Part shown: one piece after another, positions 35 to 23,600 of the stretch | Layout: every line of letters begins with the position of its first letter | Numbering within the stretch: the stretch's first letter is position 1 | Origin: Ulva prolifera | Taxonomy: Eukaryota > Chlorophyta > Ulvophyceae > Ulvales > Ulvaceae | Length of the DNA: 64,000 bases | Direction: 5' to 3' | NCBI GenBank assembly: GCA_023078555.1 | Contig: CM041197.1 | Location: forward strand, 2,762,501-2,826,500 | Program-made: the position numbers and the translations under genes | The notes under the pieces: model-generated | Seen by the model: only the letters and a program-made list of their open reading frames with translations | Databases searched by the model: none | What the model was told of the DNA's origin: nothing

Positions 35-988
<954 letters not shown>

Positions 989-1070
989 CGTGGCCGTGCA
1001 TGACCACCGACGGCGGAACAAGAACGTTAACATGTTATAGCGCATACGGCTACTAATAGTATATCTCCAA

Positions 1071-1173
1071 AATCACAAAGCTGCATATATGCAGCTTTGT
1101 GATTCACTCGTTCGTTATATAGCTGAACGAGTGAATATATGAGCTACGAGAGGTTTGCTCACCCGTGGGTGAG
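1071..1173. repeat. Cluster of three palindromes
   Basis: A perfect 34-bp palindrome at 1071-1104 (arm AATCACAAAGCTGCATA) runs directly into a second inverted repeat with 12-bp arms (ATTCACTCGTTC at 1102-1113, its complement at 1125-1136). A perfect GCTCACCC-GT-GGGTGAGC palindrome follows at 1156-1173. No adjacent gene was identified. Confidence 0.85.
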
Positions 1174-1210
1174 CGACTTGGGTGAGCCGCAGATTCGTGA
1201 ACGGGTACTG

Positions 1211-1537
1211 GCTGTATCTGTGAGATGAAAAAAAAAACCAAAAAAAAATCGGAAAGGCGGGCCAAGTGGATGCGATCCTGCCGGGCTGAGGCACGGGCGC
1301 GGTTGTAGTGTACTTGTGCATACTATAGTATGTTGCTGTTGTTTCAGATGATATTCTTTTGTGGTGTTTGTGTCTTCTCCCGTTTACTCTTTACAATTTG
1401 TTACAAACAGTGAACGGGAGAAGACAAACACCACAACCGAATCTCATCCGAAGCAACAGCAACACATACACACACGATCACACTACAACCGCACCCACAC
1501 CTCAGTCCGGCAGGAGTTTTTACTCTTTTGTAATACA
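1211..1537 (+). mobile_element. Retroposon-like element (beta) with a nested inverted copy
   Basis: The 13-bp word TGAACGGGTACTG is present without mismatch at 1198-1210 and 1538-1550. Between the copies lies a plus-strand element ending in TACTCTTTTGTAATACA. It is interrupted at about 1393-1518 by an inverted copy of the same family, which is flanked by the 10-bp word TTTACTCTTT (1383-1392 and 1519-1528). The forward and inverted copies share the blocks GTGTTTGT-CTTCTCCCGTT and GTTGCTGTTG. This is best read as two successive insertions. Confidence 0.75.
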
Positions 1538-1550
1538 TGAACGGGTACTG

Positions 1551-3208
1551 CCAGTGCTGCAGAAGAGCCCGGCTGCGAGTGCCAGCCATCGCACTGCATG
1601 CAATTGCAATTGCACAACTGAAAAACTGCTGTTGTAATACGTATTGCAATTGCGCAACTGCAGTTCATGAAGGCGCTCCGGGACCCAAGAATTCATCGGT
1701 GCAAGGTGCATGCAGCCGCGTGTGGTGGCTTCGTCTTCAGCCTTTACCAACAGCCCCTCTTGTGGGGTGTTGGCTCAGGCCCGTTCACACTTCTGTTACA
1801 TTGTGTTTTGGCGTCGCGCGCCCGCCCCGCGCTCCATGGCCTGCACGCCTATCATATGAATAGTGCTAGCTAGCTCCGAGTCGCTGCCGCCAGCCCGTAC
1901 GTGTACACGAGTCATTTTCGCCGACGCCCTCACACTGTCCACTCCGAAACAGACTTTGATATGCTCTGCGCATGCGTGCTCAGCGCTGGAATGCGAGCGC
2001 TCGTTGTCGCTCTACTGCGCACCGCCCGCTTCCAAACTTCGCAGCCGACACGGATCCACCCGCATCCGCACGACCCTGTCGCCACGCTGCGCATGCATCT
2101 GTTCGAGACATCCGATGCCGCATACGGCACTCTCATTTCTGACGAATCGGTGCACCGCGGTGCGCTGCGGTCGCCGGCCTGAGGAGCTCCAAGTCCCACG
2201 CTAATACATGCATGCTACGTATACATGCAAGCAAAACATGCTACGTATACAGCACCCTCGCGATCGAGCGATCGCATGCATCATGATGGCACTCTGGCTA
2301 GCTGCACCTTCAGGCCATGGCCAACTGCGTGCACTCATGAGTTGCGAGGCCATTCTCTTCCAGTGCCACCCGTCCAGTGGACGGCATTCAGGTGTAGTGC
2401 ACCAGCTGGCCACATATAAGAGCTACGAGCGCAGCATACGGACACCAGCTCGAGCTGATCACTGTCCCAGTCATCTGCCACATCCCGCCTTCAGCGCTAC
2501 GCTCAACTTTCTATCACATCGTCTAGAGGCCATATCGCCAGCCAAGTCCCTGAAAGTCCTGAAGCACCAACTTCCCTGAAGCACAAGTTTAGTCCGGTTT
2601 ACGGCAGATCCACAGCGACAGGTACGCCCCATGGCCAGCAGGGAACATACACGAGTGACTGCCACTGGCAGCCGCAGCGTCTGCATGCGCAGAGGCACTG
2701 TTTCTTAAAATTTGGCGCTGTTTCTTTAAATTTGGCGTGGATATACATTGATAAACCATCTCTGGCCATGATGTACACATTCTTACATACAGCACCGCAT
2801 CGGAGCCGGATCAAAGGTTGCCTGTACATGGACGTCCACAAAGGCCACAGTGACTGAACAGGGACCAAGTTGCCGCCGCCGCGGCCTAGTACTAGTCCTT
2901 GCATCCTTAGTGCCCAGCCTGCCAGTGACTCACTCATAGGGTAGCTACATATTGTCTTACCCCGTGCACGTGTACATGTGTTACGGAGGCTCGATGCATT
3001 CCAAGTGCATTCCGATCGTCTTCCGAGCAATTGGACATACCGATATTCAGCTGCACGCGCACAATCGCGCCGATGTGCGAACAATTTGTATGCAACTTGT
3101 TGTCAATCCTGACACAATGCCTGCTTGAAGCAGCGCTCCAGGGGTCTTTGTCTTGACCATCGTGATCAATGGCGAGGCTGCAGGCGTTGGAATTCCACAG
3201 GCAGCGAT
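1551..3208. other. Intergenic stretch, no gene recognised
   Basis: Contains only short unconvincing reading frames on both strands, short tandem words (for example ATGCTACGTATACATGCA near 2210-2250) and a TATAAG-like word near 2413 that is about 800 bp from the next start codon. No protein similarity was recognised. Confidence 0.6.
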
Positions 3209-3396
3209 ATGATGAGCTCACGTAACAGCAACAAGGGGGCCCTGCGGGCGGCGGGCCTGGGGTCCCTGGCGATCGCGGCCAGTGCCCTCTCGGTGCAGGG
3301 CGCCCGCGTCTTCTGCCGCTTCGTCAGCGCCTCGCGGACCTCCATCCAGACCCAGGACGGCTACGCCGAAGCCCGTGCGCCCTCCCGCCCCCCGCC

Positions 3397-3484
<88 letters not shown>

Positions 3485-5916
3485 TCTCCTCTCTCTCTCT
3501 CTCTGTCTCCTCTCTCATCTCTCACGCATCTCTTCTCTCTCTCTCCTCTCTCTCTCTCTCGTCCTCTCTCTCTCTCTCTCTCTCTCTCTCCTCCGATCTC
3601 TCTCTCTCTTCTCGCTCTCTCTCCTCCTCTCTCTCTCTGATCATCTCCTCTTCTCTCTCTCTGCTCTGCTCTCGGTCTCTCATCTTCTCTCTCTCACCTC
3701 TCTTCTTCTCTCATCCTTCACTCTCTCCTTATCTTCTCCTCTCTCTCCTCTCTCTCTCTCTCTCTTTCTTCTCGAGAGATCTCTCTAGAGCACTCTGCTG
3801 CCCCTGCCTGCAGCCTGACGATGTTGCTGTCGATTACTACCATGTCCACGCAGTGTATCCAGTGTATCCACCCTGCCTGTCCACTTGTGCGCCAGGCCTG
3901 CGTCGCCGGAGCAGCTGCGTCGCCGGAGCACACCTGAGCGCGTGCTCCAGGCATGGCCCCGACCCGCTGCAGAAGCCTGCTGTGCACCCTATGTACATGA
4001 AGTCAGCCAATCTCGGCAGAGAGTATCCGTTGGGGCCCTCAGACACGTGGCCAATTATGAACGGCTGTGGCTGAGGTGGTGTGGCCGGCGTGCAGTGATC
4101 GACATCGCGGAGTCCATCTGTAACGAGGCCACCGGCCAGCCGGTCGTGGTGCCCATCAACGAGCGCGTCTCGGCGGTGGCCTTCGCACAGGCTGAGGCCG
4201 TGGCAGGGGTCATCGGCCAGTGCGCTGGCACTGGTACTGCGCAGCTGCAGGTCTCGGCGCGCAGCAACGCCGAGGCGCAGGCGATGGCGGTCGGCACCGC
4301 CTCGGCCAACATCATCGCCTCCTCCGGCGTCTGTGGCCTCTGCGAGACGGCCCTGGAGTCGTTCGCGGTCGCGGTCGAAACCCTCACCGCCACCGCCGTC
4401 GCCGAGGTTAATCTAGATGTGCGCTCCCGCCGTTCCTCCCGCGTTGCCCTCTGACATGGCTGCATGCATGCCAGTGCTGCCCACCGTGGATATCCGATTA
4501 TAATCAATTCAACGCTGTACCTCCTGCATGACAGACCAATGAGGCATCAACTCGCGTGATTGCGATCGCATGTTCAGCTGTGAGTGGCTCTGGCGCAGGC
4601 ATCATTCGAGTTCAACGGCGAGCCGCTGACAGTGGCTGTCGTGCAACAAGTCATCCAGACCGAGGTGGCCGATCTGCTGTCGACCATCACCGGCGAGGTG
4701 CGCAGCAGCGCAACCGACGGCTGCAGCGCCAACACCCTCGGCACCGCGCAAGCCGGAGCCGCCCGCGCCGAGTGCGACGTGTCCATCAGCGCGTCCCAGA
4801 TCGTCACCGAGATCGACGCGGTCGCGGACGCCGGCCTCGAGGTGCAGGCCCTCGGCTGCGACGGCGTGGACAGCTTTGTGGAGGTCGAGCTGCAGCTGCG
4901 CGAGGTCGCCGTGGCTGTGGCGCAGGCTGTCACCCAGGCCACGGCCTTCTGCGAGACCGCCGGCGGCCCCGGCACGATGGCGTGCGGGGTGAGCAGTGGC
5001 ACGGTCGACTCTGTCGCAACCGCCACCGTGCGCTCCTGCAGCTTGCGCGCGGCATCCTGTCCAATACTAATGCTGCAACGCAGGCGCACTTGGCTGCTCA
5101 GTCTTGAAGCTGCATCAGCATGCTGTCGATGTAGTTGACAAATGTCAACAACATGCATGTAGTAGCTGTTGGCATGGGTGCACTGCCTAGGTTTCGTCTC
5201 TCCGTTGCACGTATGCATCTGTTTCACATTTGATGCATGCCGCCGGTGGCCACAACGTCACGAGGCTAGCCTCAGGCTGTGACGGGGAGAGGAGGTACCA
5301 ACGCTAACGGTGTTGTAACTATGCAGGCCCAGGCCTTTGCCCTCGCCATCGGCGAGGCGTTCGGCCCGGAGTGCGACTGCGAGGTCGCAACGCGCCTCGA
5401 CGCTCAGCAGATGGCCACCATCATCGCTGAGGCCAGCGCCTCGTCCCTCGCCGAAGTCTGCATTGGTGCGCCCGCATGTCCCCCTCCCCCTGCCATGCTC
5501 GTCTCTATAGATGATATGCCTGTCCCATCTTCTGATATCTGTCCTGACGCTGTATTTGACATCGTCTTTGCAGTCGTATGTTCGGCAGTGGGCCCAATCA
5601 CCTGCAATGTGCATACGCATGCATCACGTCCGAATGCCGCCGTTGCAGCGGCAAGCACTCCTCAGCACGGCATGCACATCATGGCAACCGTCATGATGCC
5701 GTCAGCGCACCGCCTGAGCGCGCAAGAGTCACGTGAGGCGCATGTGCAGAGGGGACCGACTACGCCCGCGTCTTCGACTTCCAGAACGACGCACAGGAGC
5801 GGCTTGCGGAGGTCCTGGCGGAGTCTTTCGTGCAGGCCTTCTCCGGTGACATCGACTGCGGCGTCGCCTTTGGCCTCGTCGCCGAAGTCAACCCGCTGCC
5901 CTCGTTCCAGCCTTAG
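3209..5916 (+). CDS. Unrecognised cysteine-containing, Ala/Val-rich probable secreted protein, copy A
   Basis: Five exons: 3209-3374, 4096-4418, 4599-5027, 5327-5465 and 5750-5916, giving 407 residues and ending in TAG. The model is supported by the inverted paralogue at 13.97-16.38 kb, whose five exons have identical lengths and phases. All four introns begin GTGCGC. The N-terminus (MMSSRNSNKG, then a short hydrophobic stretch LGSLAIAASALSV ending VQGA) resembles a signal peptide. The mature part is predicted mostly helical, rich in Ala, Val and Glu, with 14 cysteines spread over all exons, for example GVCGLC and GPECDCEV. No known domain was recognised; a secreted or cell-surface role is inference. 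Intron 1 carries a large CT-rich tract. The start is the first of two consecutive ATG codons, where similarity with the paralogue begins. Confidence 0.8.
3400..3775 (+). repeat. CT-rich microsatellite in intron 1 of copy A
   Basis: About 375 bp of imperfect (CT)n with interspersed CC, TCTG and ATC interruptions. It lies in the first intron of the gene at 3.2-5.9 kb. The matching intron of the inverted paralogue lacks it, so it arose or expanded after the duplication. Confidence 0.95.
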
Positions 5917-7388: not shown

Positions 7389-8216
7389 CAGGCCGAAGGG
7401 CCAGGCGCTGATCTCCGGCAGATCTTAGCTCGCAGGACACATGTGTGATATATAAAAAAGTGCTTACAGCAATTATATAAATTCAGACCTCCTCCTGCAG
7501 TCTAGTGAGCTGCTGCCCACCAGTCCATGACCACTTCCACGGTACAGGTAATCATAGTCTGCTAGATATAATCTCAAGCAGCAGAGTCTCGCATCCACTG
7601 ATCTACAACTGTTCATGGATTGTGCTATAGCTAGATTCAGCAGCAGCATTTGTGGCTGTGATGTTGCAGTTTTGAAGCAAGATGGCTGCAATCAGCGAAG
7701 CAAGGACCAGCAGTCAACGATGTATTCATAATGTGATAAAACTGTACTGTGCCATGATGGTACATGTTTACGCACCTGTATCGCACACCTATCGCTGCGT
7801 GGCGAGCTCCTCCTGCAGCACCCGAGAGTGAGAGACGTGTGCGCAGGCTGGCTCGTTCGTGCGCAAATCAACGCTGAAGGCGCACCAAGAGCAGATCAAG
7901 ACGATGCAAGATAGATTCCACAGCATCAAGCACCACTGCTTCTGCATCCAGCGCCGGGAGGCCTCGGAGTACCGTTGCAGCAGCACCAGGATGACAACGA
8001 ATTGACCCCGAACAGAGCGGCTCCAGGCTCTTTGGGCTGATTTGTGCGCCACGCTGACGATGCATATGACCATGTGTTGTAACTATTGTGTCGAGGAATC
8101 CGCCATGGCGCGCCAGTGGGCTTGCTGAAGGGGTGGGTCGTGCGTTCGCATGAACATGCTGCTGTACGCCGAGGGTGACGAGCGTCGCGACGACGTCGGT
8201 TATGGGTGCCTGCTAC

Positions 8217-8375
8217 CATTACGCGTCATCGACAAAAGAGTGAGTGGAAGAAGACAAACACAAAAACCGAGGCTCATCCGAAACAACAGCAACACACACA
8301 CGATCACTTTCGCGGTGCTGCCCGCCTCGCCGCATTTATCCTTGTAACACACACGATCACACTACAACCGCGCCC
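8217..8375 (-). mobile_element. Retroposon-like element (beta) interrupted by an alpha insertion
   Basis: Bracketed by 15-bp words differing at one base: ATGGGTGCCTGCTAC (8202-8216) and ATGGGTGCATGCTAC (8376-8390). On the minus strand it shows the beta blocks GTTGTAGTGTGATCGTGTG, GTTGCTGTTG, GGATGAG and CACTCTTTTGT in order. Its CA tract is split by the separate 39-bp alpha insertion. Confidence 0.7.
8308..8346 (+). mobile_element. Nested 39-bp alpha insertion
   Basis: Flanked by a perfect 14-bp duplication ACACACACGATCAC (8294-8307 and 8347-8360). The insert starts TTTCGCGGTGCTGCCCGCC and ends CCTTGTA, matching only the 3' part of longer alpha copies, so it looks 5'-truncated. Confidence 0.75.
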
Positions 8376-8583
8376 ATGGGTGCATGCTACGCAGTTGTGC
8401 TGTACTGCCAGTGCTGAACTCTGTTGACGATTACGACAGAATGCAACAGAATCTGCAATTTGAGTTTAAATTCTCTCTGAGCTGCACACAGTCCATGAGC
8501 CATCTTCTGCGCGTGTGGGTGTGCTGTTTGTTCAAATCCCATGGCCAGCGTTTCATCTGGTTGCCGATTCGATGACACAAATC

Positions 8584-8607
8584 GGACGGCGTACCTTTGT
8601 TCTTGTA
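8584..8607 (+). mobile_element. Very short insertion ending TTCTTGTA
   Basis: 24 bp between perfect 9-bp copies of ACACAAATC (8575-8583 and 8608-8616). The 3' end resembles the alpha family; the rest is too short to assign. Confidence 0.45.
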
Positions 8608-9585
8608 ACACAAATCATTGTATTCGTTGGAGTACGTAACAGGCAGCAGCACCACGTCCCAGCATGTGCGTTTCCAACTCCTCTCCCATATCGCCGCAAA
8701 GAGATCACAATGGGCAGCTACGAGTTGTCGAAAGAAACGGCAATGATGTGTGCCAGTGCTGCGGCTTGCGGGGATCACCTTGGCTGCCGTGTCTCGCAAC
8801 ATTGTATGCTGACCCAGACAAGCCAGCAACGCAACACGAAACGTGGGCGTTACAGCGCATCCGCAATCCACATGTTCACCAGACATCAGTGATGTAACAT
8901 CACCCAAAACGTATTGCCTTGGGCTCTTGGCTTCGTGGACGAAGCAGCATGATGACATCAGGCTGTGCTGCATCTTGGTGAAGTGTGCACTCATCTCTGG
9001 GATCACGCAATAAAACGTGTCCCTGGCAATTGATGAATTTGGTGACATGTTTTTGCTATGCTACCGCTTTCTGACCTATGCACACCTCGTGGGGTGTGCC
9101 CATGCTTGGCACAGGCAAGGCCTGAAGCCACGAACTCCCTGCATGGGCGTGAGCTTGACAAGGTAGAGCACACCCAATGCGGAGTTGATGTGTTTCCATA
9201 TCATGCGATTCCATTTACATCACTCCAGCCTGCCACTGCATAAAGTAACTCTACAGCGGCCGCAATGGGACCATGTTTCACCCAGTAGGTACCCAGCAGC
9301 TCAAAATGTGCCATGATGTCTGAATGTTAACAATTGCAAATTCTCTCAAGCTCGCCTTGTCCTGTCCGGCCTGGCCACGGTGGACCACGGCTGCCCCTAT
9401 GACAGTGCACCTACGCTGAGGCAGATCACCGCCAGACTCCAATCGTGTCTCAAGTAATCGTCACCAGCATGGTTGAGGGTCACTCAGCCGACATCTGTAT
9501 AACTTCTGTTGCAAAAGCCCACAGTTTGGAGCTATGTATTTTGTTGTTAGGTGATGAATTACACACCCAGATTGCTTTGGGTGAA

Positions 9586-9660
9586 AGGATCATCCTAAAA
9601 GAAGGATCATCCTGAAATAGGATCATCCTAAAAGAAGGATCATCCTAAAAGAAGGATCCT
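9586..9660. repeat. Tandem array of AGGAT-C-ATCCT near-palindromes
   Basis: The 11-bp near-palindrome AGGATCATCCT starts at 9586, 9603, 9619 and 9636, with a truncated fifth copy at 9653. Periods of 16-17 bp are filled by AAAAGA-type spacers. Confidence 0.85.
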
Positions 9661-9704
9661 CTGGTGCAGTGCTATATAGACGTCAATGTGCACACATCTC
9701 CGAT

Positions 9705-9839
9705 CCTGTGTCTTTTGCTGCGCCGGTGATGGGTTTTTTTGGCGTGGTGGGTGTCGCGTGCGTGGGTGTCTGTGTGTTTGCTTCGTCTGTTTGCTTCTTT
9801 CGCGGTGCTGCCCGCCTTGCTGCCTTTGTCCTTGTAACA
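9705..9839 (+). mobile_element. Retroposon-like element (alpha), about 135 bp
   Basis: Flanked by a perfect 14-bp duplication CACACATCTCCGAT (9691-9704 and 9840-9853). The insert is G/T-rich at its 5' side and ends with the alpha 3' block CGCGGTGCTGCCCGCCTTG...CCTTGTAA. Confidence 0.8.
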
Positions 9840-10499
9840 CACACATCTCCGATAGCAGTCCTTGAGCTGGTCCTTGAGCTAGTCCTTGACATCCACACTC
9901 ATGAGCGTGACCAGTCACCGGGCCGTGTTCCTTCGGATGACGGCGGCTCTCGGACCAAGTGACCGCCGCCGGGCCTTACAGGCTATACTAGGTTAGTGCC
10001 CGCCGCTGCCTCGTGGCGAACATGTGGGCTCTGTCGTAAGCCTGTACGATACCATATGTGGGCATTGGCATCATCAAATGTGCTAAAGCACCGCAGCGGC
10101 GGCCCGCTGCTGGCCAGTGCAAGCCCGGCGGTTGTCAGGCAACCTTATACTTAGCTATCGACTCTGTAGACTCAGGGGCTCTGGCATGGGGGATACATCG
10201 TTGTTGTCCAGATCACTCCGAGCTGTCGCGTGAGATCTATGCCCCCGCCGCCTCCGATCTCCTGACTCCAGCTCCACAGGATCGCTGATGTGCGCACAAG
10301 CGATGCTGTGGACTCCTGGATCGGAGCTGGAGTCAGGAGATGGCCATGGCTGTGGGGGTCAGCCTGCTGGAGGCTGCGCCGGGTCATGCCACACGCAACC
10401 ACACCGCGGCGCATGATGGCATGAATACGCTGTGCGGTGACTCGCACTGCCGCCCCAGCGTCGATGCATTCCGCGTACACAGGCACACAGGCACACATG

Positions 10500-11130
10500 C
10501 ACAGCGTGCACAGCGTGTGCTTTCTTTCGGGGCTCTTGCGCCTGGCTGGTGGGCGGGGTTCGGGTGGGGGTGAGCGTGTGGATGTGCTTGTGGGTGTTGG
10601 GTGGGATGCTTGTGTGTGTTTGTGGGTGTGTGTTACAAAGGAAAAAGCCGGAAGGGCCGGTAGCACCGCCAGGACCAAAAGGGAGAGCACGAGAAACGCA
10701 ATGCGCACGTAGCAGGAGAGCAACAGCCAACGCCAAGGCACAACAAGCACCCACACACCCCCACACTCCTACACACCACCACACAAACCAACCCCCACAC
10801 GCACCTCCACACGCACCCACCCCCAAACGCCCCGACACACTGACACCCGACCCACGCGCCCACGCACCCGCACGCGGCCCAGACCCAACCCCCAACACAC
10901 ACACCCACGCGCCAATACGCTACACGTATTACGCTACAATACGCTACATGCTGGTGTGTGTTTGTGGGTGTGTGTGGCCGTGTGTGTGGCTGTGTGGCTG
11001 TGGCCGGCGCGAGTGCCGGCGGTGCGTGGGTGTGTTGGTGTGTGATGCGTGTGGCTTGTTGCGTGGTGTGCGGTTCCCCTGGCTGCTGCTCGCGGCGCTA
11101 CCTGCCTTGCTTGCTTTGTCCTTGTAACAA
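10500..11130. repeat. Cluster of alpha-type sequences in both orientations
   Basis: A plus-oriented G/T-rich piece (about 10500-10635) abuts an inverted alpha-like copy starting TTACAAAGG (about 10632-10900), followed by a long plus-oriented copy (about 10950-11129) ending GCTTTGTCCTTGTAACA. The last copy closely matches the element at 18109-18262. Exact ends and duplications could not be fixed. Confidence 0.5.
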
Positions 11131-11865
11131 ATGCACACAGGCACCCTCGGCATATCTGGTTTGGCCTTCCGACTCCAAACGAGTTCGTCGGCGCAGGGTG
11201 CCATACAATGGCCCGACCCATGTCATTGGTTACGGTTTGCCATTCATAGCATCATAGCTAAGTTGATGTTGATAAAAGTCAGTTGGAGCAGTTTGGACCA
11301 TCTCTCGTCCCGCGGGGCCGTGCGGCCGGAGCCGCATGCCCCGCCGCGCCCGTCCTCTTGGGGCGTGCATGCATGCATGTGTACGCCAGGCTGTGTGGCG
11401 GCTGTACCCTCGCGTCGGCTCCGCGCATCAGGGAGGAGCTTACCAGGGGCCTCAAGCTCATGGATGCATTGCGCTGGCGCACTTGCGCATCAGCAGCAAC
11501 TAGCGCCGAACTGAGTATAAGCACGTGCAGCCACCGGCAGCAGCCAATGGCCACTGATCGGTGCTGTGGTACTCATGCATGTCGCTTGACAGGCAGCGTA
11601 CTGCAGCACGCTGGCTGGCTGGTTGCAATTGGTGGGTGCTGGGATGGACGGCGGGAGGCAACCTGGATGGTGGTGCCCCCCCCTCTGTGGGCATATGCTT
11701 TCTGAATGGGCTGGCGTAGCCACGTGGCAGGGCGCCAGGAGCTGGGGTGCTGCGTAAATTATAGCAACTGTCAGGTAGGCAAGGGGCCTGGCAGAGGCCG
11801 GGTCGTGATCGCGCGCTCCGCCTCCTGGGGGCGACGGCCTGTCGGTGCGCGTTCCTCGCGCTGTA

Positions 11866-11888
11866 GGGGGGGGGGGGGGGGGGGGGGG
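11866..11888. repeat. Poly-G run of 23
   Basis: Uninterrupted G homopolymer in intergenic DNA, one of five G/C homopolymers longer than 20 bases in the window. Confidence 0.97.
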
Positions 11889-13236
11889 TATGGGTGTTGA
11901 CATGTTCACGGGGATCCGCGACGGGGCGATTGTGAGGGGCGGCTGTGCACAGTCATGCATGCTGCACGTGCATGTGGTCACATCCTTGCCAGAGTTGTGC
12001 ACACATCCAGTAGTGAAGTCAGAACCTGGAGCAACGCGGTGGTGTGGCAGCATTCGAGACCTGCTGGAGGTCGTCTGCATACGCATGCCTCCGTCGTTGT
12101 GCCCCATTGTGAGTGCCACACGTCGCGGAATTTAAGGGCAGTCCCGCGAGATGGAGACCGCCATCGTATACATGCGGCATGCTCGCAGGAAACAGGGACT
12201 TGATGCTGTACAGCGATTTGTTGCTGTACATGTGGTCATCTGGAGCTCCCACTACTGTCCCGGATGGGGATGATGAGCTCTTCTAAAGCTGATGTTACAA
12301 ACAGCCTGGACGACCAGCCGGCTTCAGCTTAGAAAGTTGGCCATAACATGGTGCCCACATGCCATGTGTTGAATTTGATACGCTGTCACGTGCACTTTTC
12401 ATCCTTTCACTGACCTGCACCATGGCACCGTGGGTTCGTTCCCATTGTGCACAGAGGGGCGAAATTTCTTTGCAGAACATGTGGACAAATCACCAGAGGT
12501 CAGGCCATTGCAATTGCATGGCAGAGAAGCAAAGCGTACTCACGCCAAGCAAGCATCAGTATCAACATGAAGAGCTTCTAGATCCACCTGATCCATGGAT
12601 TGTGTGTGCCTCGTCGGGTGATGTGTGCATGTGTGCCGGCCTAGTCCGATCGCGAGGAGTCCTATATATATAGCCTGTATATATAGCTACTCACACAAAA
12701 AGAACACCACAGTTGGCCCATGGGTATCCTGGACACACCAAAGGGACAGAAACACCCGACAAATTGAAGAATTGGTTGCCCTATCACAGGCTTTGGCGAT
12801 GTGGACTGAACACATATGCACATGTACCCAATGCATGTACCCAATGCGTTGATGTCTGTACATCGGACCACAATGCTGATGCTTTGGAAAACAAACGGCA
12901 ACAGGTGGTGCAACAGGCTGATCATGAGTGCATCATCGTGGTTCCATTCTACAAAGCAGCGCAGCAATCTATCCCAAACACTCTTCATGAGGTTCGATCA
13001 GTGTATGAAAACTTGCATAAGTGGATCCTGTCCTTCAGTGTTGAAGCATCACGGTACATGTGGAGCAGTAAAACAGTAATCCGTTACATTTACGCTAGAT
13101 CTTTCGCCCTGCAGATTACCTATCAGCTGACGCCGTGGCTCTGCAGACTGGTGCTACACTGTAGCTGACAGCTTTTCTGAGCAGCAATCCAGCCACTTCA
13201 GTAATAAGGGACCCTAAATTCTACTTCACCAACGAT

Positions 13237-13280
13237 TCGGTTTTGCTGTTTGTGTTCTTCCGTTCACTCTGTTGTAAATG
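13237..13280 (+). mobile_element. Short beta-type insertion, 44 bp
   Basis: Flanked by a perfect 14-bp duplication ACTTCACCAACGAT (13223-13236 and 13281-13294). The insert runs TCGGTTTTGCTGTTTGTG through CCGTTCACTCTGTTGTAAATG, the 3' part of beta. Confidence 0.8.
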
Positions 13281-13971
13281 ACTTCACCAACGATACTTCT
13301 GCTTTCACCGCGCACCAGCTCGAGATCTTGGAACACATCGTCTGGCTGCTCTAGACCTACTTCTCGCAGGCTAGCTCATGAGCTTCTGCAGGAGCTCCCA
13401 TCAAAACCATAAAACTGTTGGCTCCCAACAGCTGACTGAAAGTGGAAAGGCTGGGATGTGTTGCTCCAGCTCACACCGGGAGGCATCAAAGTGTCCTCCC
13501 ATGCATGCCATCCCAGCAACGTCCTTGTTTCAGCAGAGCACGCTCGAGAGCTCTGCTCACAACGGGGCACATCCAGCGGTGCAGGCATCGGAAAGGCTTG
13601 CAAACTTTGAAAGTGCACGTGTGCTGTAACGTGATGCAGTCGCGCACAGACGTGCCACACCTCCGAGGGCACGAAGTTGCCTCGGAGGCAACTTGAAGGC
13701 TAATACCGGCGGGCCCTTCAACTTGAAGTTGTATCCTTGGAACGTTATTGTAGCTGCAGCCTGAGGCATCAGCCAAAAAATCAACAGATCTTGACTATAC
13801 TATAGTAGCCTACTATAGTGAGGCCAGGCCGGCACCACCAGATGAGCACACCGAGAGCCCAGCCTGCCTGCGTTTATGTACATGCCGGCCCACAACATCG
13901 ATGGCCCAGGCACAAAGCCTGGCCTCCCACCGTCGCATACGGAGACGGCAGGTGCCGGCGAGCCCGGCTGC

Positions 13972-16376
13972 CTAAGGCTGGAACGAGGGTAGCGGGTTGA
14001 CTTCGGCGACGAGGCCAAAGGCGACGCCGCAGTCGATGTCACCGGAGAAGGCCTGCACGAAAGACTCCGCCAGGACCTCCGCAAGCCGCTCCTGTGCGTC
14101 GTTCTGGAAGTCGAAGACGCGGGCGAAGTCCGTCCCCTCTGCACATGCGCCTCACGTGACTCTTGCGCGCTCAGGCGGTGCGCTGACGGCATCATGACGG
14201 TTGCCATGATGTGCATGCCGTACTGAGGAGTGCTCGCCGCTGCAACGGCGGCATTCGGACGTGATGCATGCATATACGTATGCACATTGCAGGTGATTGG
14301 GCCCACTGCCGAACATACGACTGCAAAGACGGTGTCAAACACAGCGTCAGGACAGATATCGATCAGAAGATGGCACAGGCATATCATCTATAGAGACGAG
14401 CATGGCAGGGGGAGGGGGGGTGGGGGCGCACCGACGCAGACTTCGGCGAGGGACGAGACGCTGGCCTCAGCGATGATGGTGGCCATCTGCTGAGCGCCGA
14501 GGCGCGTTGCGACCTCGCAGTTGCACTCCGGGCCGTGCGCCTCGCCGATGGCGAGGGCAAAGGCCTGGGCCTGCATAGTTACAACACCGTTGGCACCTCC
14601 TCTCCCCGTCACAGGCTAGCCTCGTGACGTTGTGGCCACCGGCGGCATGCATCAAATGTAAAACAGATGCATACGTGCAACGGAGAGACGAAACCTAGGC
14701 AGTGCACCAACAGTTACTACATGCATGCGGTACTACATGCATGTTGTTGACATTTGTCAACTACATCGATAGCATTCAGATGCAGCTTCAAGACTGAGCA
14801 GCCAAGTGCGCCTGCGTTGCAGCATTGGACACGATGCATCAGGCATATGCCGCGCGCAAGCTGCAGGAGCGCACAGTGGCGGTTGCGACAGAGTCGATCG
14901 TGCCACTGGTCACCCCGCACGCCATCGTGCCGGGGCCGCCGGCGGTCTCGCAGAAGGCCGTGGCCTGGGTGACAGCCTGCGCCACAGCCACGGCGACCTC
15001 GCGCAGCTGCAGCTCGACCTCCACGAAGCTGTCCACGCCGTCGCAGCCGAGGGCCTGCACCTCGAGGCCGGCGTCCGCAACCGCGTCGATCTCGGTGACG
15101 ATCTGGGACGCGCTGATGGACACGTCGCACTCGGCGCGGGCGGCCCCGGCTTGCCCAACGCCGAAGGCGTTGGCGCTGCAGCCGTCGATCGCGCTGCTGC
15201 GCACCTCGCCGGTGATGGTCGACAGCAGCTCAGCTACCTCCCTCTCGACAGTCCGTTGCACTTCATTCACGGTCAGCGGCTCGCCATTGAATTGATATGT
15301 CGTCTGCATGCACCACAGCCAGTCACGGTTGGGACTGACGGAACAGCTGAATATGGGAATCAATCGTCCTCATTCATACACGTGCCTGGGCTTGTGACCT
15401 CTGCGGCGGGGGGGGGGGGGGGGGGGGGAGGCGTCAATGCAGCAGTCAGCGCAGGAGGACGTCAATGCAGCAGTCAGCGCGGGAGGACGTCAATGCAGCA
15501 GTCAGCGCAGGAGGACGTCAATGCAGCAGTCAGCGCGGGAGGACGTCAATGCAGCAGTCAGCGCGGGAGGGAATAAATGGTACGCGGGGGCGCACATCCA
15601 GGTCGACCACGGCGATGGCATTCGCCGTGAGGGTTTCAACCGCGACCGCAAAAGACGTCAGGGCCGTCTCGCAGAGGCCGCAGACACCGGAGGAGGCGAT
15701 GATGTTGGCCGAGGCGGTGCCGACCGCCATCGCCTGCGCCTCGGCGCGGCGGCGCGCCCGCACCTGCAGCTGCGCGTTGCCGTCGCCGGCGCACGTGCCG
15801 ACGACCGACGCGACAGCCTCGGCCTGCGCGAAGGCCACGGCCGAGATACGCTCGTTGATGGGCACCACGATCGGCTGGCCGGTGGCCTCGTTACAGATGG
15901 ACTCCGCAATGTCGATCACTGCATTCCACCCACACCACCTCAGCCGCAGCCATGCTGACTGGTCGGGCACGTGTCCGAGGGCACCACAGAGACCTCCCGT
16001 TGGGAGTGAACGGTTCCATGCCATGGGCACCACAGTGTGCATACGCATGTGAAGCGCGGCATCAATGCATTATGTGCAGCGTGTCCGGAAGCGCATGGAG
16101 CACGCGATCAGCTGCAGGCGCGATCCAGGTTGACACGTGTATACATACGTATACGGTCAGGTTGTCGGCAGGGTTGTCGAGCAGCGGGGGCGAGGGGCGG
16201 GAGGGCGCACGGGCTTCGGCGTAGCCGTCCTGAGTCTGGATGGAGGTTCGCGAGGCGCTGACGAAGCGGCAGAAGACGCGGGCGCCCTGCACCGAGAGGG
16301 CACTGCCCGCGATCGCCAGGCACCCCAGGCCCGCCGCCCGCAGGGCCCCCTTGTTACTGTTCCTTGAGCTCATCAT
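13972..16376 (-). CDS. Unrecognised cysteine-containing, Ala/Val-rich probable secreted protein, copy B
   Basis: Five exons on the minus strand: 16376-16211, 15918-15596, 15303-14875, 14570-14432 and 14138-13972. Each has the same length as its partner in copy A, giving 407 residues with an intact frame. All four introns start GTGCGC, and acceptors are TGCAG or GTGCAG. The signal-peptide-like N-terminus and all 14 cysteines are conserved; one extra cysteine replaces Ser19. Differences from copy A are clustered: 17 of the first 51 residues encoded by exon 3 differ, but only 2 of the following 92. It is convergent with copy A. Function is not recognised; conservation of both frames suggests both are expressed genes, which is inference. 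Confidence 0.8.
15408..15428. repeat. Poly-G run of 21 in intron 2 of copy B
   Basis: Uninterrupted G on the plus strand, so poly-C in the transcript. It lies about 105 bp before the acceptor of exon 3 and directly next to the 28-bp minisatellite. Confidence 0.97.
15433..15571. repeat. 28-bp minisatellite, five copies
   Basis: Unit GTCAATGCAGCAGTCAGCGC followed by R-GGAGGAC, with starts at 15433, 15461, 15489, 15517 and 15545. The only variation is A (copies 1, 3) versus G (copies 2, 4, 5) at one position and the frayed end of the last copy. It lies in intron 2 of copy B and is absent from copy A. Confidence 0.97.
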
Positions 16377-17677
16377 GTCTGCGTGTAGGATCGCTGCAGC
16401 CACGATAGCATGCCCGTCAGTGCTATTGTTTGCGACATCTGGCTCCATCAAGCGGACATCAGGTACTTCATGAGAAACAGCTCTATGAAAGTGAAACCGA
16501 CACGCTGCTGTGTACTACGGACTCAAGTGGGATCGCTGTCTATGCAAGTGCAAGAAGCAAACCAAGCTGCAGAGTAGCGCTAGCGAGCTCAGGGCAAAAC
16601 ATTGCAAAGCCTGATCAATGCAGCTAGCCTATAGGGCGGTCACCTAGGGCGGCAAGACATATTGCTGGGCCAAGCCCGAGGTGATCAGATCTTGAGAGCC
16701 TCCTTGCTCAGACCATCAATATCGGCAAGCAAAATCAGGCGGCGCTCGCAGCTGCAGAGCAGGCACAAGCTAGCAGTGACTGCAGCATCAAACTGTGATA
16801 TATATAGTACACCAGTAGTTGTGCAATGCACACGGCAGACCCTGGCACACATGTGTACAGCGCCGCGGGGCCGACTGGCTACTAGTAGTGGTGGCATGCT
16901 CTGGTCCGAGCAACATGATCAACATGCCTGCGCTGCTCAGTGCTGTTTGCGAGGCTAGCTACGTATACAGCTGACCTGGGTCATGCATACGCAGTCCGTG
17001 CACGCCCGGGCCGTGGAAGCGAACCTGGAGTGTTAGCTGCGTGGCTTGTCCTGCTCTGCACGTATGCACGCTATATATAGTTTATAAACACGCTAGAAAC
17101 GGTTTGCTGTCTGGGAGCAGGTGTGTAGATCTAGAGCGCCTGCTTGCGAGGGAGTTGTAGGTGGCAATTGCAAAGAGGCGGACTAGTGGTGCTGGCCGTG
17201 GTGTCCTGTCTCAATCCGCCATCGCCTTATATGTGTGTGCAAGCGCACCTGCAGGTTTCGTCCATGGCCGTGCAGGTCAACTTGGAACGGTAGCCTGGCT
17301 GGCCGCAGTGCTGGGAGGTGCCGCAGCGGTAGCATGCTCTCAGGACTGAGAGCTCCGGAGGCCGCGGCGGGGTGGCCTGCATGCGTGCGCTGGTTCGTCA
17401 GAAATGGGAGCGGCATGCATGGTGCGCTGCGGTGGGAGAGCCCGCCGTGGCGACAAGGTCACCCGTACCGCGAGAGCCATCAGCGCGAGATACGTACTAG
17501 CGCGGGACCCTGCGGGAGAGGTGTGCTGCGCGCGCGGGAGAGGCGTGCTGCGTATACCATGCGTGGCTCGCACTCTCTACGCATGTAGGGTGCACATGCC
17601 AGGTGAACATCGAGAGGACTCCGGGCAGCAACGGGCGCTAGCAGCTGCAGCAAGTAGCGAGCAGCTCCATCTTTCGG

Positions 17678-17722
17678 TTTTGGTGTTTGTCTTCTTCCGC
17701 CGGCGTTCACTCTTTTGTGAAA
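17678..17722 (+). mobile_element. Short beta-type insertion
   Basis: Flanked by CTCCATCTTTCGG (17665-17677) and CTCCATCGTTCGG (17723-17735), one mismatch in 13. The insert contains TTTTGGTGTTTGTCTTCTTCC and ends TTCACTCTTTTGTGAAA. Confidence 0.7.
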
Positions 17723-17763
17723 CTCCATCGTTCGGGACGACATGGCCACAGTTCGGAACTCCA

Positions 17764-17865
17764 GGTCCTCCAGGTCCAAGGCCACAGTGTGTTGCTGTTG
17801 ATTCGGATGAGATTCTTCTTTTGTGATCTTTGTCTTCTCCCGTTCCCTCTTTTGTACAGTTCGAA
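17764..17865 (+). mobile_element. Beta-type insertion, about 100 bp
   Basis: Flanked by a perfect 16-bp duplication ACAGTTCGGAACTCCA (17748-17763 and 17866-17881). The insert includes GTTGCTGTTGATTCGGATGA, GTCTTCTCCCGTTCCCTC and a 3' end at TTTTGTA. It sits 41 bp from the preceding insertion. Confidence 0.8.
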
Positions 17866-18108
17866 ACAGTTCGGAACTCCATGTCCGCTCCGTGTTTCCG
17901 CTCCGCTCCGTATCCCCGCTTAGGCGCATGTGCATGTGTGTGGCGCCATGTTCGCGCTCATTCTAGATCTGATATGTTGTCACGAATCGAACTCGTGGTG
18001 TCGGTGTTGCAGCAGTCTGCAGCGCGAACGGGTCGAAAGACACCACATCAATAACTCTCGAAACAATTCCTCGCACACAGCTACATCGCTAGCACACAGC
18101 TGCAGCAC

Positions 18109-18262
18109 GTGTGTGGCTGTGTGGCTGTGTGGCTGTGTCCGGCGAGGGTGCTGCCGTTGCGTGGGTGTTTTGGTGTGAGCTTCGTGTGGCTTGCTGCGTG
18201 GTGTGCGGTTCCCCTGGTTCTTGCTTGTGGTGCTACCTGCCTCGCTTGCTTTGTCCTTGTAA
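18109..18262 (+). mobile_element. Alpha-type insertion, about 154 bp
   Basis: Flanked by a perfect 16-bp duplication CACACAGCTGCAGCAC (18093-18108 and 18263-18278). The insert is a G/T-rich repeat followed by GGTGCTACCTGCCTCGCTTG and ends CCTTGTAA. It is nearly colinear with the copy at 10.95-11.13 kb. Confidence 0.85.
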
Positions 18263-18391
18263 CACACAGCTGCAGCACTGCACGAATCGACTCATGATGA
18301 GCTGGCGCCGCGCGTGCCTACCCCATGCGCATGCCCACACTGATTATGAGCCTGGCCATATGCATGCTCGAGGGAGCTACCTGCAGCTAGT

Positions 18392-18451
18392 CAATCTTTT
18401 TCTTTTGACTACCTGTACACGTTTAAACAAGCAAGTTTGCTCTTCTGTAAC
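18392..18451 (+). mobile_element. 60-bp insertion of a third type
   Basis: Flanked by a perfect 13-bp duplication ACCTGCAGCTAGT (18379-18391 and 18452-18464). The body does not match alpha or beta, but the 3' end (GCTCTTCTGTAAC) has the same TGTAAC terminus. Confidence 0.65.
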
Positions 18452-18719
18452 ACCTGCAGCTAGTGATCTACATCATGATGTGCCCATGCATGGGCGTGAG
18501 TGGATGCATGCATGGGTGTGAATGGATATGCGTAGTACTAGTGGGCTTCAGATGCTTGAGCATGCTGTACACGTCAGATGTTGGCGCCCATGCGCAGCAA
18601 GCAGAGAAGCTCTGTCCAGAGCATCATGCTCATATTAAATCATCCTTGCAAGGCTTGATGCCATCATGCCTGTCTCAGAGCACCAAACACGCGGCCGGCA
18701 CGCGGCCGGCACGGTGTGT

Positions 18720-18751
18720 TGCAAGGACAAAGGCAGCAAGGCGGGCAGCAC
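18720..18751 (-). mobile_element. 32-bp alpha insertion, minus orientation
   Basis: Flanked by a perfect 19-bp duplication CGCGGCCGGCACGGTGTGT (18701-18719 and 18752-18770). Read on the minus strand, the insert is GTGCTGCCCGCCTTGCTGCC followed by TTTGTCCTTGCA, the 3' end of alpha only. Confidence 0.8.
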
Positions 18752-19620
18752 CGCGGCCGGCACGGTGTGTGCATGTTCCACTAATATTATTCAAAGGCGT
18801 CACTGACATGTCGTTGTTCTGCAGAACGATATCATTAGTGCATGCATACGTATCCGGCAGGCAGAGTTCTCGTGATCGGTGGACATGTTTGGTACATTTC
18901 CGCCGCGGCCTGAGCTTGACTCTGCAGACATGTGCGCTGATCCACGCTGTGCATCTGAAGGCATATACATAACCTTGACTGGCCATATTTTATTGAGAAC
19001 AGCCCATATGCAGCTGCACGATAATGTACTTCCCAACTTTCATTAATCAATTGTCGGCCGCGGCCACACATCAGGCTTGCCAAGCGCAGGCTGCACCATG
19101 GTGCAGCCCCCTTCGAGGTCTCAATGCTGCTCAAGTAAGCTACTTGGCAAGCTCAAGCAAGGGGAAACATCCCGCTCATGGATGATCATCAGCAGAGACT
19201 CATGAGTCTCTGCTGGTGGGGTGCGTCCACAGTGCATCGCGCCTGCCGTATACGTATATACGTAGGCACATGTACATGGAACGAGTCGGCGACAGCAGCG
19301 TTGGCACGGACTCCTCGGAGGCCTGACCGGATCTCGAGATGTGATCAACTTGAAGATCGATCTTGATATCGATCGAGCCCCGGGGGGGATTGTACGGTTG
19401 TGGACGGGTCAAATGTTGCCTCCGAGAGTCTAGACTATAGATCTATAGAGCTCTTCTTCAAAATCATCACAAAGGATCACTGGAATCCAGCACTAAATTA
19501 CTTTTTTCTTGGCGCCACATGTACACTATAGTGCACTATAGTGTACACTAGTGTACTACAGCACAGTACGGCAGCCGAATCCATGTATGTGCCGTGAAAC
19601 GCATGTAGCCTTCTGTGGGT

Positions 19621-19665
19621 TACAAAAGAGTAAACGGGAAAAGACAAAAACCACAACAGAATCTC
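19621..19665 (-). mobile_element. Short beta insertion, minus orientation
   Basis: Flanked by 18-bp words with two mismatches (ATGTAGCCTTCTGTGGGT at 19603-19620 and ATGCAGCCTTCGGTGGGT at 19666-19683). The minus strand reads GAGATTCTGTTGTGGTTTTT...CCCGTTTACTCTTTTGTA. Confidence 0.7.
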
Positions 19666-20260
19666 ATGCAGCCTTCGGTGGGTGGTTGTATTAGCACATG
19701 CATGGTTTCAAGATTCGGAGTTCCGATCTGCTGCCAGTGTTCATGTTGCGGACGTTCGTCTCTCATTGCGTGCGCTGCTGTATCGTGGCTGCGCGTGTAT
19801 GGCTGCTGGTTAACATGTTGCTTCGGGAGAGATTATTTTGCTGTGTGTGTCTATCCCCATTCGCTCTTTTGTAATGTTCCCTGTTCACTGCTGCGTACGC
19901 AATGCGTTTGTTTTCCGTACTCAATGCGTTGACGCGCACGCTGCGCTGCACACGTCGGACGACGTCGGCCAGTCTACTAGTAGGCAGCCGCCATGTGCAG
20001 CCGCCACGTGAGCAGCTGCTGCGCACGCCAGCTGGCGCACCATGCGCCGTGCTAGCCTGCAGAACGAGCTTGAGCTGCCCTGCAGCGGAAGTGTCGACGT
20101 CAGCAGCCCGCTGATGGAGATCGCGATTATCAATGAGTGATCACCAGCGCTTGCAATATACTGACACCACACGCAGCAAGCTTGAGGACGCTCTCGATCG
20201 TACACTGCTCAATTGTATTGCAAAACTATAGCACCTGCACAGCGTTGATGCTGCCAGCAC

Positions 20261-20520
20261 GGCTTCATGGCGAGCTGCGCTACAGCCGCTGCCGGGCACA
20301 GCCCGGCACCTCGCTGCACCCAGCTCGCCATGAAGCCAGAGACGCTACACCAGAGTATCTCCCGCTCGCTGCGCCGCAGCCGCGGCCGGGCTGCGCCCGG
20401 CCCCTCGCTGCTCACAGCTCGCCTCTATAGCACAGCATCTTCCGCTCGCTGTGCTGCAGCGAGCAGCCGGGCTCCGCCCGGCCGCTCGCTGTGCACAGCT
20501 CGCTGCATCGGGGCTCCGCC
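20261..20520. repeat. Three GC-rich hairpin units
   Basis: A perfect 17-bp inverted repeat (GGCTTCATGGCGAGCTG, 20261-20277 and 20321-20337) encloses GCCGGGC-ACA-GCCCGGC. Two related downstream units repeat CTCGCTGYGC... and contain GGCCGGGC-TGC-GCCCGGCC (about 20390) and GCCGGGC-TCC-GCCCGGC (about 20468). The units look like an imperfect tandem array. Confidence 0.75.
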
Positions 20521-20647
20521 CAGGGCCCCAAAAATGCCGTGGGATCGACCCGCCGCCGCCACGAAAGCGTCGGCAAGGCCCGCAAAATGCGCACCACACA
20601 AAGGTACGAGCGCACTGTGCTGCGCGCTGGTTCGACGCCACGGCGGT

Positions 20648-20691
20648 TACAAAAGAGTGAACGGGAGAAGTAAAATGCTACAAACGAATCT
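20648..20691 (-). mobile_element. Short beta insertion, minus orientation
   Basis: Flanked by CACGGCGGT (20639-20647) and CACAGCGGT (20692-20700), one mismatch in 9. The minus strand ends CTCCCGTTCACTCTTTTGTA. Confidence 0.6.
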
Positions 20692-23600
20692 CACAGCGGT
20701 ACATCCACCCCTCACAGCTGTGCACAGTTTACAGTGGAATTCACCTGAGCTCGTAGCTAGGACGAGCACGAGTGTGCTCATATATGAATATGCATGTTCT
20801 GCAGTGCAGCCACAAGCGCTCCAGGCCCAGGGATGCCAATGCGGGCAGCACACCACAACAAGGCGTCCGCGAAGGTGTGAAACCACTTCAATATTGGTGG
20901 CCATGGTAGTACGTATACCGGTGAGCATACGCATGGCACTACCTTGAAGAAACGGTGACCGCGCGCATAGGTTCATGCCCTCGATCGGTCAGTCCTCCAG
21001 GAAGCATGTGCATGCATGATCTGGTGGTCGTCCTGCAGGATCATGGGCCCGTTTCCAAGACCAGTGAAAGGGCTGATCATCTTGCAATTCAGACAGGCCT
21101 GCGCGCCCAGCTATGTGCAGGGCAGTTGTGAAGACTTCCAAGTGTTTGTGTGCATATGTGATGTGATGTTTGAAACAGATTCGGCTCTAGATCTTTGGTC
21201 CAATTGCAGCTTGCATTTGCACAAGCTTAGGGCTCTGCAGCTGGTTTGTTCTCGAGATCCGCAGTGGCAAATGATTTCTGATCGGGCAGACCCCGGTTCC
21301 AGCCGGTGTGCAGCCTGCTGAGTCAGCAATCACCGGGGCAGCCGAATGACCCCCTCCAGGCATGACGATCGGGGTGAACATCGCTTGCAGTGTAAATCGT
21401 GATGTGTGCGTTTGGATCAATTGTTCCATTGCAGCATGTTCGGCATATAGTCCCGTTCATTCGGAGCTGTCAATGCCATCTACAGGACAAGGCTCTGTAA
21501 ATCCAGAATCACTTTATTACTTTGCGTACATCAAATAGATGGCCGAGTGGGCGCAGCACAGCCGCACACAGTAACATCCAGACAGCTGCAGGTCAGCTCT
21601 GGATACCAGGCACACAGGCTCTGGGTGTATCACACGTCTGAGAACAAGTCGTCTTAGCTATAGTCTCCCTGCCAGTGGTGGTGTAATTTTATATTTGCCA
21701 GTCATGTCACACGCTTGTGCAATGTGACCATCAGTGCCACTGGTTCCTGCAACACGGAGCTGGCATTAAACCAACTGTGATTTTTTGTCGGACGATTCAT
21801 GCCTAAAACCATGATGCACCGTGATTTCAATTCTTGTGACATTGAAAGATGAATCGGCTTCGATGCAGCATGTCAAGAATTCAACCTCAGGATCACCCAT
21901 CTGATTGCACATGAGCACATACGAGAAGGGGATTTGAGTCATCATCTTGATGTGACTGACACCTTGATGTGACAGCTACATCGCTGTCAGCTGGTCTGTT
22001 GTCCTCAGCCGGGGTCACAGGCTGGGGTTGAAGCTTCTCTCGGCCCCGAAGCCCGGAGGCCTTCACAAGCTTCTTGGGAAGCGGAACAGAACGCCGGCAA
22101 TCTTGCTCAGTTACGATGTCCGGAGGTGGATACGGCTGCCGTTCACCTCGTGCAACTATGCGCTCGTTTCCCTTGTGCTTCTTGGTGATGAGATGCCTGC
22201 TCAAATGATCAACAGACTGAGACCATAGATTGCACTTATTACAGAAAAATCATTTATGCGGCAGGGCTATGTATTCATCTGCAGCGGGCCGCTTGGACGT
22301 CATAGACAAACGAATCTCCGTTAGCGGTCTACAGATGCACGATCAAGTCATTGACACCGAACAGATAGAGATACGCGAACTGTGCACACTGAATGGCTGA
22401 GTGATGCGACATACACCCGGAATGCAGAGACAAGCATGCCCATTGCGAGAACAACAGTGGCGATGGTCAGCAAGGCACCCGCCATGCACTGCGAAACGGA
22501 ACTCGCTATCTCGGAGATACCGGCCAGCGCATCAATCAAGTGTGCGTGGCAACCTTTCAAATCTAGTGATGTCATTTTCTCGCGAGACTTTTTACCAACA
22601 ACCTACCAGAAGATGTGAAGTACTGCGCCATCATATTCGACGCTGTGCAACCCACCTGACGTTGCGCACCCATACGAGCGGCTCACCCACGGGGGTGAGC
22701 TTCCGATTCCGGGAGGTCACGTCGCAATACTATGAAGGCAAGCCACATTGTATCCCGCACGAACCAGTGCCGGCGCTGACTATTGGATCGTAGAGAACTT
22801 AACAATTGCCTCGCCGTGATGTCCCATCATGTCCCCGTTTCGCATGCCTCACCAGGCGGGAACTCACCCAAAACAATAGCTCACCCACCTGGTTGCGCCA
22901 TCAATGGATAACAATATGGATTTTGGCATCTTTGTCTCAGTCCGGACGGGCGGGGCTCACGTTTGATCAGATACAGCAGGAATCACGGCCATAGCATAGG
23001 AGCACATGAAGACAATGTAGTCATGTGAGATTGCCACACCCTCAGTATGATCACCCTTGGGTATTGCACACCCATCCGGGTGAGCCAGCACTGCACACCA
23101 GCGCACCAAACATGTAACAGAGCAAGCAGATTTGAGTTACAACAACTCGGAAAGGTCCAACAGCTATAGCAAGGTAACAGATCAGCCTTCAAAGCTTTAT
23201 TGAAGCATTTCCTGCAACTTTAGCTTGTGGCTCACCCTCCATTGGCGCACCCACCGGGACGGCTCACCCAGGTGAGGCAATGTCACCGTAGTCACATATG
23301 TATGTAGACATGTGCCGGTGCTCGCGTGGCCTCGGTCGCACCTTGACTATGTCAGCCGCGGATGTAGTATGTGCTCATGTGCAATCAGATGCCACGTGCA
23401 GCTGTACATGTGGAGCGGGATCAGTTCTGCGTGACATGTACACTGTCATGTCAGGCCAATGACCAGCCAGCCGGTTGCTCAGGAAATGCAATCCACCGCC
23501 CATACAACTTTGCCGCGTGCCTCTGCGGATCCTGCAGTGCTGGCATCCAGTGTTGGGTCGTCGGGCCCGATCATATGTAACGATTCCGATTATTCAGGTA

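Follow-up and report, generated by a model that had tools for sequence, protein, structure and literature searches.

The question posed by a 64,000-nucleotide stretch of the Ulva prolifera genome (assembly GCA_023078555.1, contig CM041197.1, positions 2,762,501 to 2,826,500 of the forward strand; the whole stretch is called the window) is what produced its very short insertions, which close on a common 3′ terminus, begin at different points and are often bracketed by direct repeats. An earlier note on this DNA, made from the sequence alone, read them as short interspersed elements (SINEs) mobilized by long interspersed elements (LINEs) through target-primed reverse transcription. We conclude, with a probability of roughly 93%, that the insertions are 5′-truncated copies of related non-long-terminal-repeat retrotransposons, that is, LINEs, with 3′ ends that are TTGTAA or a close variant of it. 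The case for target-primed reverse transcription is good: the insertions have common 3′ ends, varied 5′ ends and variable duplications, occur in many copies genome-wide, and share their 3′ end with an autonomous-looking LINE. The SINE part of the proposal does not hold: the two main bodies, alpha and beta, are 5′-truncated LINE tails, because longer copies pass through a LINE 3′ untranslated region (UTR) into a LINE reading frame. The short sizes reflect truncation and do not point to a small unit.

Tails and duplications in the window

We aligned six tail sequences (the last 45 bases, taken from fetched loci) to both strands of the window with a score cut-off of 18, using the reversed, uncomplemented window as the control. 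Eighteen tail-like stretches score at least 18, versus none in the control, and 13 of them fall within 8.2–20.7 kb. The earlier note had distinguished two main bodies and another type; beta and the third type are recovered, and 'alpha' separates into at least four related tails (A1, A2, A3 and A4). We then searched the flanks of 19 tail ends of our choosing (17 of the 18 scan stretches, 1353–1392 being excluded, and two others: the insert near 8.6 kb and, at 18.4 kb, the third body type). A score of at least 12 is reached by the flanking repeats at 7 of the 19, versus 12 of 570 when right flanks are swapped and 14 of 600 positions drawn at random; the proposed family of insertions with common 3′ ends and flanking duplications is real.

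All seven repeats described earlier as perfect are present. On the plus strand, a 39-bp A4-type tail (8308–8346) lies between 14-bp duplications (8294–8307 and 8347–8360), a 135-bp A1 tail (9705–9839) between 14-bp duplications (9691–9704 and 9840–9853), a 44-bp beta tail (13237–13280) between 14-bp duplications (13223–13236 and 13281–13294), and a 154-bp A2 tail (18109–18262) between 16-bp duplications (18093–18108 and 18263–18278). A 97-bp beta tail (17769–17865, plus strand) is flanked by a 21-bp repeat with one mismatch, 16 of these positions being exact in a run (17748–17768 and 17866–17886), and a 32-bp A1 tail on the minus strand (18720–18751) by a 19-bp duplication (18701–18719 and 18752–18770). 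These six were found in both the scan and the flank search; the seventh, the third body type (60 bp, 18392–18451, plus strand, with the end TTCTGTAAC), comes from the flank search and has a 13-bp duplication (18379–18391 and 18452–18464).

The repeats described as near-perfect fared less uniformly. Those at 17.7 kb and 19.6 kb hold: a 45-bp beta tail (17678–17722, plus strand) has a 13-bp repeat with one mismatch (17665–17677 and 17723–17735; score 9), and a 44-bp beta tail (19621–19664, minus strand) has a 19-bp repeat with two mismatches (19602–19620 and 19665–19683; score 11). At 8.2 kb, a minus-strand beta copy (8232–8372, 5′ end approximate) scores only 6 in the automatic search, and the repeat GTAGCA[T/G]GCACCCAT is recognized on both sides by eye, ∼15 nucleotides past the tail end. 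The repeat at 20.65 kb, beside a minus-strand beta tail (20646–20690) found by the scan, is weak, with 5 bp exact.

The beta copy at 8.2 kb also supplies an empty site. The A4 insertion (8308–8346) sits within it in the opposite orientation. Once the insertion and one 14-bp repeat are taken out, the alignment with the beta copy near 1.4 kb scores 133 in place of 115 and crosses the junction, a 4-bp length difference in a TG run aside; aligned against another locus (L084), the same removal gives a small gain (116 to 120.5).

The earlier note had overlooked a 638-bp plus-strand copy (10495–11132) with a terminal A2 tail (11087–11128). This copy is flanked by a 12-bp duplication (10483–10494 and 11133–11144), and an antisense A3 tail detected by the scan (10632–10676, minus strand) is nested within it. 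The flank search also characterizes a 24-bp plus-strand insertion (8584–8607) that has the end TCTTGTA and a 9-bp repeat (8575–8583 and 8608–8616). Additional tails lie outside the interval 8202–20700 to which the note referred: a plus-strand beta tail (1353–1392) beside a longer minus-strand beta copy (1393–1518), where a 10-bp repeat resembles pieces of the beta tail and was not counted as a duplication; a diverged A1-like tail (30336–30374, minus strand) with a 9-bp CA-rich repeat; an A4-like tail (40172–40205, minus strand); and a weak A2-like tail with the lowest scan score (50107–50145, plus strand). The flank search gave no convincing repeat for the last two (40.2 and 50.1 kb), for the nested A3 tail (10.63 kb) or for a diverged beta tail at 19.83 kb (19831–19874, plus strand). 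The window also contains an 845-bp CA dinucleotide array with a 99% match (106–950).

Genome-wide copies and their parent LINEs

Searches beyond the window covered the 88.9-Mb, 44-contig assembly that holds it. The A1 and beta tails are found at 682 and 547 places, respectively, with up to two mismatches, and the A2 and A3 tails at 846 and 326 places with up to three, versus none in the reversed control for any of the four. Exact repeats of at least 12 bp occur within 300 bp upstream at 10 of 30 A1 loci (0 of 600 with swapped flanks) and within 1,400 bp upstream at 19 of 30 (7 of 600 swapped); these loci are the first-listed zero-mismatch places and so lean towards young copies. For beta, repeats of at least 11 bp are found within the 250 bp searched at 7 of 20 loci, versus 0 of 400 swapped. 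A mismatch-tolerant pass gives a score of at least 11 at 19 of 31 alpha and 10 of 24 beta loci, L054 and L083 among them being doubtful; in L054, the 710-bp insert delimited by the longest-match repeat is probably wrong, and ACACACTGCAG, recognized by eye, gives ∼137 bp. The genome-wide tail search, one of the checks proposed in the earlier note, yields hundreds of places per tail, and in the loci sampled from them repeats exceed the swapped-flank controls. Two of the loci (L070 and L071; G000:C1:12305900-12315500 and C1:12396900-12406500) are a 9.4-kb segment duplicated ∼90 kb apart with 95% identity, and carry the same A1 copy.

In these loci the inserts, measured from their single fixed 3′ end, range in length between ∼30 bp and 5.4 kb, the duplications are 11–25 bp long, and the 5′ end varies among the copies that bear them. 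Short size and flanking duplications, and nothing else, would also suit DNA transposons or miniature inverted-repeat transposable elements with two fixed ends; given the ranges of insert and duplication length (no search was aimed at terminal inverted repeats), we regard the probability of this explanation as close to nil.

The longer alpha copies lead to a parent. Longer A1 copies align over >1.2 kb; in one (L069), the reading frame stops ∼630 bp before the tail end. Locus L075 contains a complete LINE copy of 5,399 bp (340–5738 of the locus) with a single intact frame of 1,463 amino acids, an A1 tail at its 3′ end and a 16-bp target-site duplication (324–339 and 5739–5754 of the locus); it looks autonomous and ends as the insertions do, which makes it the kind of element that the note had suggested looking for. 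The 585 nucleotides 3′ of its coding frame, stop codon included, are 45% G and 27% T and close in the A1 tail. Eight of ten related frames have a 3′ region that closes in TTGTAA (ATGTAA in L104) where expected, with an A2 tail in L096, A3 tails in L097, L098, L100 and L103, and A4-like tails in L102 and L105. When frames and tails were paired by coordinates (49 frame matches and part of the tail places, from hand-picked lists with the A2 places taken by eye), 12 frame–tail pairs have the tail on the same strand within 1.6 kb downstream, nine of these at 681–748 bp, versus one opposite-strand pair. A search with the RVT_1 family fetched 30 loci, none with any of three tail patterns within 1.5-kb flanks.

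The beta tail leads to a second frame. The sequence upstream of the tail is common to L106–L109 as far as the copies extend, that is, ...LRYDAGLEDAILPD-stop followed by ∼106 nucleotides to TTGTAA. Searching with the LRYDAGLEDAILPD peptide gave 301 candidates, of which the best 150 are all identical to it; their open frames range from 17 to 1,201 amino acids, with ten at 1,199–1,201. A search with the last 362 amino acids (L110) gave 116 rows, 26 of which span the whole query, including 11 in frames of 1,199–1,201 amino acids (one with an internal TAG). The copies therefore form a gradient from 547 tail places to 347 with the stop-codon region, ∼26 that include 1.1 kb of coding sequence, and approximately ten whole frames; the gradient is rough, since the searches were not equally strict and scoring covered a portion of the candidates. 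As judged from these sequences, beta is roughly the final 106 nucleotides, which follow the stop codon of another, predicted LINE-like frame of 1,199–1,201 amino acids.

These longer copies bear directly on whether the insertions are SINEs, that is, short units that possess a 5′ end and a promoter of their own, carry a LINE tail and are moved in trans. Their small size and common 3′ ends are what a SINE would present, and because nearly all matches to one beta copy (L090) start at one base, a fixed 5′ end seemed to be present. However, that base is the truncation point of L090 itself, and other beta copies continue upstream into the coding frame, so the SINE reading of beta was rejected; for alpha, the A1 copies reach >1.2 kb and up to a complete LINE, and 5′ ends vary among the duplication-bearing copies. 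We consider SINEs a very unlikely explanation of the insertions as a whole, although the third body type at 18.4 kb could be one.

An Rfam scan of one beta copy gave no row above the gathering score, and the microRNA rows were judged to be matches to TG repeats. Two beta-related loci have unusual structures. In L083 (G000:C7:1998436-1998806), a body similar to the A2-type LINE tail is joined to a beta tail; this sequence is unique genome-wide at up to three mismatches and is possibly the product of a template switch. In L107, the 3′ end carries the terminal CTCTTTTGTAA twice in tandem, as would fit a restart or slippage of the enzyme.

Endonuclease class and target choice

The L075 protein contains GVRQGDPL and HDD, a pair of C2H2-like motifs close to the N-terminus and, in order at its C-terminus, C-x-C-x8-H-x3-C, RHN, RGDI and DVCVTH. 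The C-terminus of the beta protein (L110) contains the same motif set in the same order; both proteins fit C-x-C-x8/9-H-x3-C, RH[ND], RGD, DV-VTH, an order that is found in none of 20,000 shuffles of either protein (a lenient control, the spacing having been fitted after reading when the first spacing failed). A CCHC motif followed by endonuclease motifs is the order in restriction-like-endonuclease LINEs. The alpha and beta C-termini share 40% identity over 140 amino acids (E 1e-20). In the PDB, L075 is matched best by two R2 proteins (9nl3_A and 9dou_A) over ∼216 residues, with E values of 0.014 and 0.018; without the N-terminus, the same proteins match with E values of 0.009 and 0.012, and the remaining rows for L075 are chains of non-structural protein 3 (E ≥0.2). 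Between RHN and RGD (residues ∼1165–1310), L075 has a long, low-complexity insert rich in Ala, Pro and Ser that is not present in the beta LINE.

The insertions could also be LINE copies made by an enzyme outside the restriction-like-endonuclease class, for example RTEX- or L1-like with an apurinic endonuclease. No curated domain model matched the proteins, and the 3′ repeats listed for green-algal RTEX LINEs in PMC3747384, among them (CTTGTAA)n and (CA)n, are close to the tails described here. The C-terminal motifs, however, are in the order that characterizes restriction-like-endonuclease LINEs, and no retrotransposon other than R2 was matched in the PDB; we judge the alternative enzyme to be unlikely.

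A preference in target choice is suggested for A1. CA is found at positions +3/+4 after TTGTAA in 24 of 30 A1 loci, versus a background of 9%, the search pattern itself having fixed CA directly after TTGTAA. With L054 excluded, 15 of 18 alpha duplications begin with ACAC or hold CACA in their first six letters, the first letters being biased by the pattern. In the beta loci, CA is found at +3/+4 in only 3 of 20; the preference is, therefore, not general. Several inserts have extra letters, often of CA type, between TTGTAA and the duplication, which suggests that the RNA template extends slightly beyond TTGTAA, that slippage occurs or that nucleotides are added. Single-sequence folds, judged by eye, gave no hairpin common to the alpha and beta tails. 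In L097 and L103, the LINE 3′ ends run into CA repeats. Antisense LINE tails are nested in GT-rich LINE 3′ UTRs in L053, L099, L101 and the window copy at 10495–11132; the nesting is apparently recurrent, with differing junctions.

From these observations, we propose that a LINE protein with zinc-finger-like motifs, a reverse transcriptase, a CCHC motif and a C-terminal restriction-like endonuclease would nick one strand of the target; for A1, the nick would often fall at a CACA-type sequence. Reverse transcription would then be primed at the LINE RNA 3′ terminus and would in most cases halt once between a few dozen and a few hundred nucleotides had been copied; cutting of the second strand ∼11–25 bp away would generate the duplications. 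A broader proposal, which we offer tentatively and with more doubt than belief, is that several restriction-like-endonuclease LINE families, diverged to ∼40% identity towards the C-terminus, all retain the same RNA 3′ terminus (UUGUAA, often with CA after it) and lean loosely towards CA-rich targets. The GT-rich 3′ UTRs of these LINEs would thereby become favoured sites for antisense insertion, and very early stops would seed thousands of 24–150-bp insertions that standard repeat annotation would overlook.

Several results weigh against the assignment of the insertions to such LINEs. In the stretch searched, 12 of 31 alpha loci and 14 of 24 beta loci lack a repeat with a score of at least 11; as the beta loci were fetched over a short stretch, the repeats of long beta copies were out of reach. 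Two of the ten related frames (L099 and L101) have no sense tail where expected, each having an antisense A3 tail instead, and no parent element turned up for the third body type, for which no dedicated search was made. The beta LINE protein is known from its last 362 amino acids, with the presumed reverse transcriptase outside that part, and the resemblance of the predicted reverse-transcriptase region of L075 to R2 is weak. Pfam gave nothing for L069 and sub-threshold rows only for L075 and L110; NCBIfam gave one sub-threshold row and none that passed the cut-off; and a PDB search with the C-terminal domain gave no match. Predicted structures are poor, the mean confidence (pLDDT, predicted local distance difference test) being 41.7 for the reverse-transcriptase part of L075 (single sequence) and 39.0 for the beta C-terminus (three sequences).

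Comparison with known systems

The kind of element is known and the process is familiar; the unusually small scale, the families themselves and the leaning of A1 to CACA make the insertions of moderate interest. Much small, unique-looking intergenic sequence is accounted for as LINE debris, and tails of merely 24–60 bp can be genuine insertions. The clean duplications and nested insertions provide material for studying how LINEs choose targets and prime. For annotation, they advise caution: before a short 3′-anchored repeat is named a SINE, the sequence just upstream should be checked for a stop codon. As judged by titles and abstract openings, with most subscription journals outside the search, we found no published description of these LINEs.

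Among green algae, PMC3747384 describes Chlamydomonas SINE/LINE pairs and LINE 3′ repeats that include (CA)n and (CTTGTAA)n in RTEX families. The tails described here resemble those RTEX repeats; however, RTEX and RandI/Dualen, which occur with SINEX elements, are other LINE clades according to a table in that source, and no SINE partner was found here. For restriction-like-endonuclease LINEs, PMC4640811 names five clades, records Utopia in Amoebozoa, SAR and Opisthokonta, and states that Togen targets (TG)n and that some HERO families target microsatellites. As described there, Utopia, NeSL, Togen and HERO have the layout predicted for the Ulva LINEs, a single protein with N-terminal zinc fingers, a reverse transcriptase, and a C-terminal zinc finger and restriction-like endonuclease; the microsatellite targets of Togen and HERO are similar to the CA runs in which L097 and L103 lie. 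The targets here, in contrast, are only partly CA-rich and beta lacks such a preference; the likeness is drawn from motifs and targets.

R2 is similar in the reverse-transcriptase alignment with L075 (∼216 residues, E 0.009–0.018), the N-terminal zinc-finger-like motifs, and the C-terminal CCHC and endonuclease motifs. R2 inserts in 28S rRNA genes; the insertions here, unlike those of R2, are dispersed, with 11–25-bp duplications that differ from copy to copy, and the C-terminal domain has no PDB match and, in L075, carries the long low-complexity insert between RHN and RGD. The 5′-truncated copies of mammalian L1 have a fixed 3′ end, a varied 5′ end and a target-site duplication; the Ulva LINEs share this insertion outcome, but reach it without a poly(A) tail and with many copies shorter than 150 bp.

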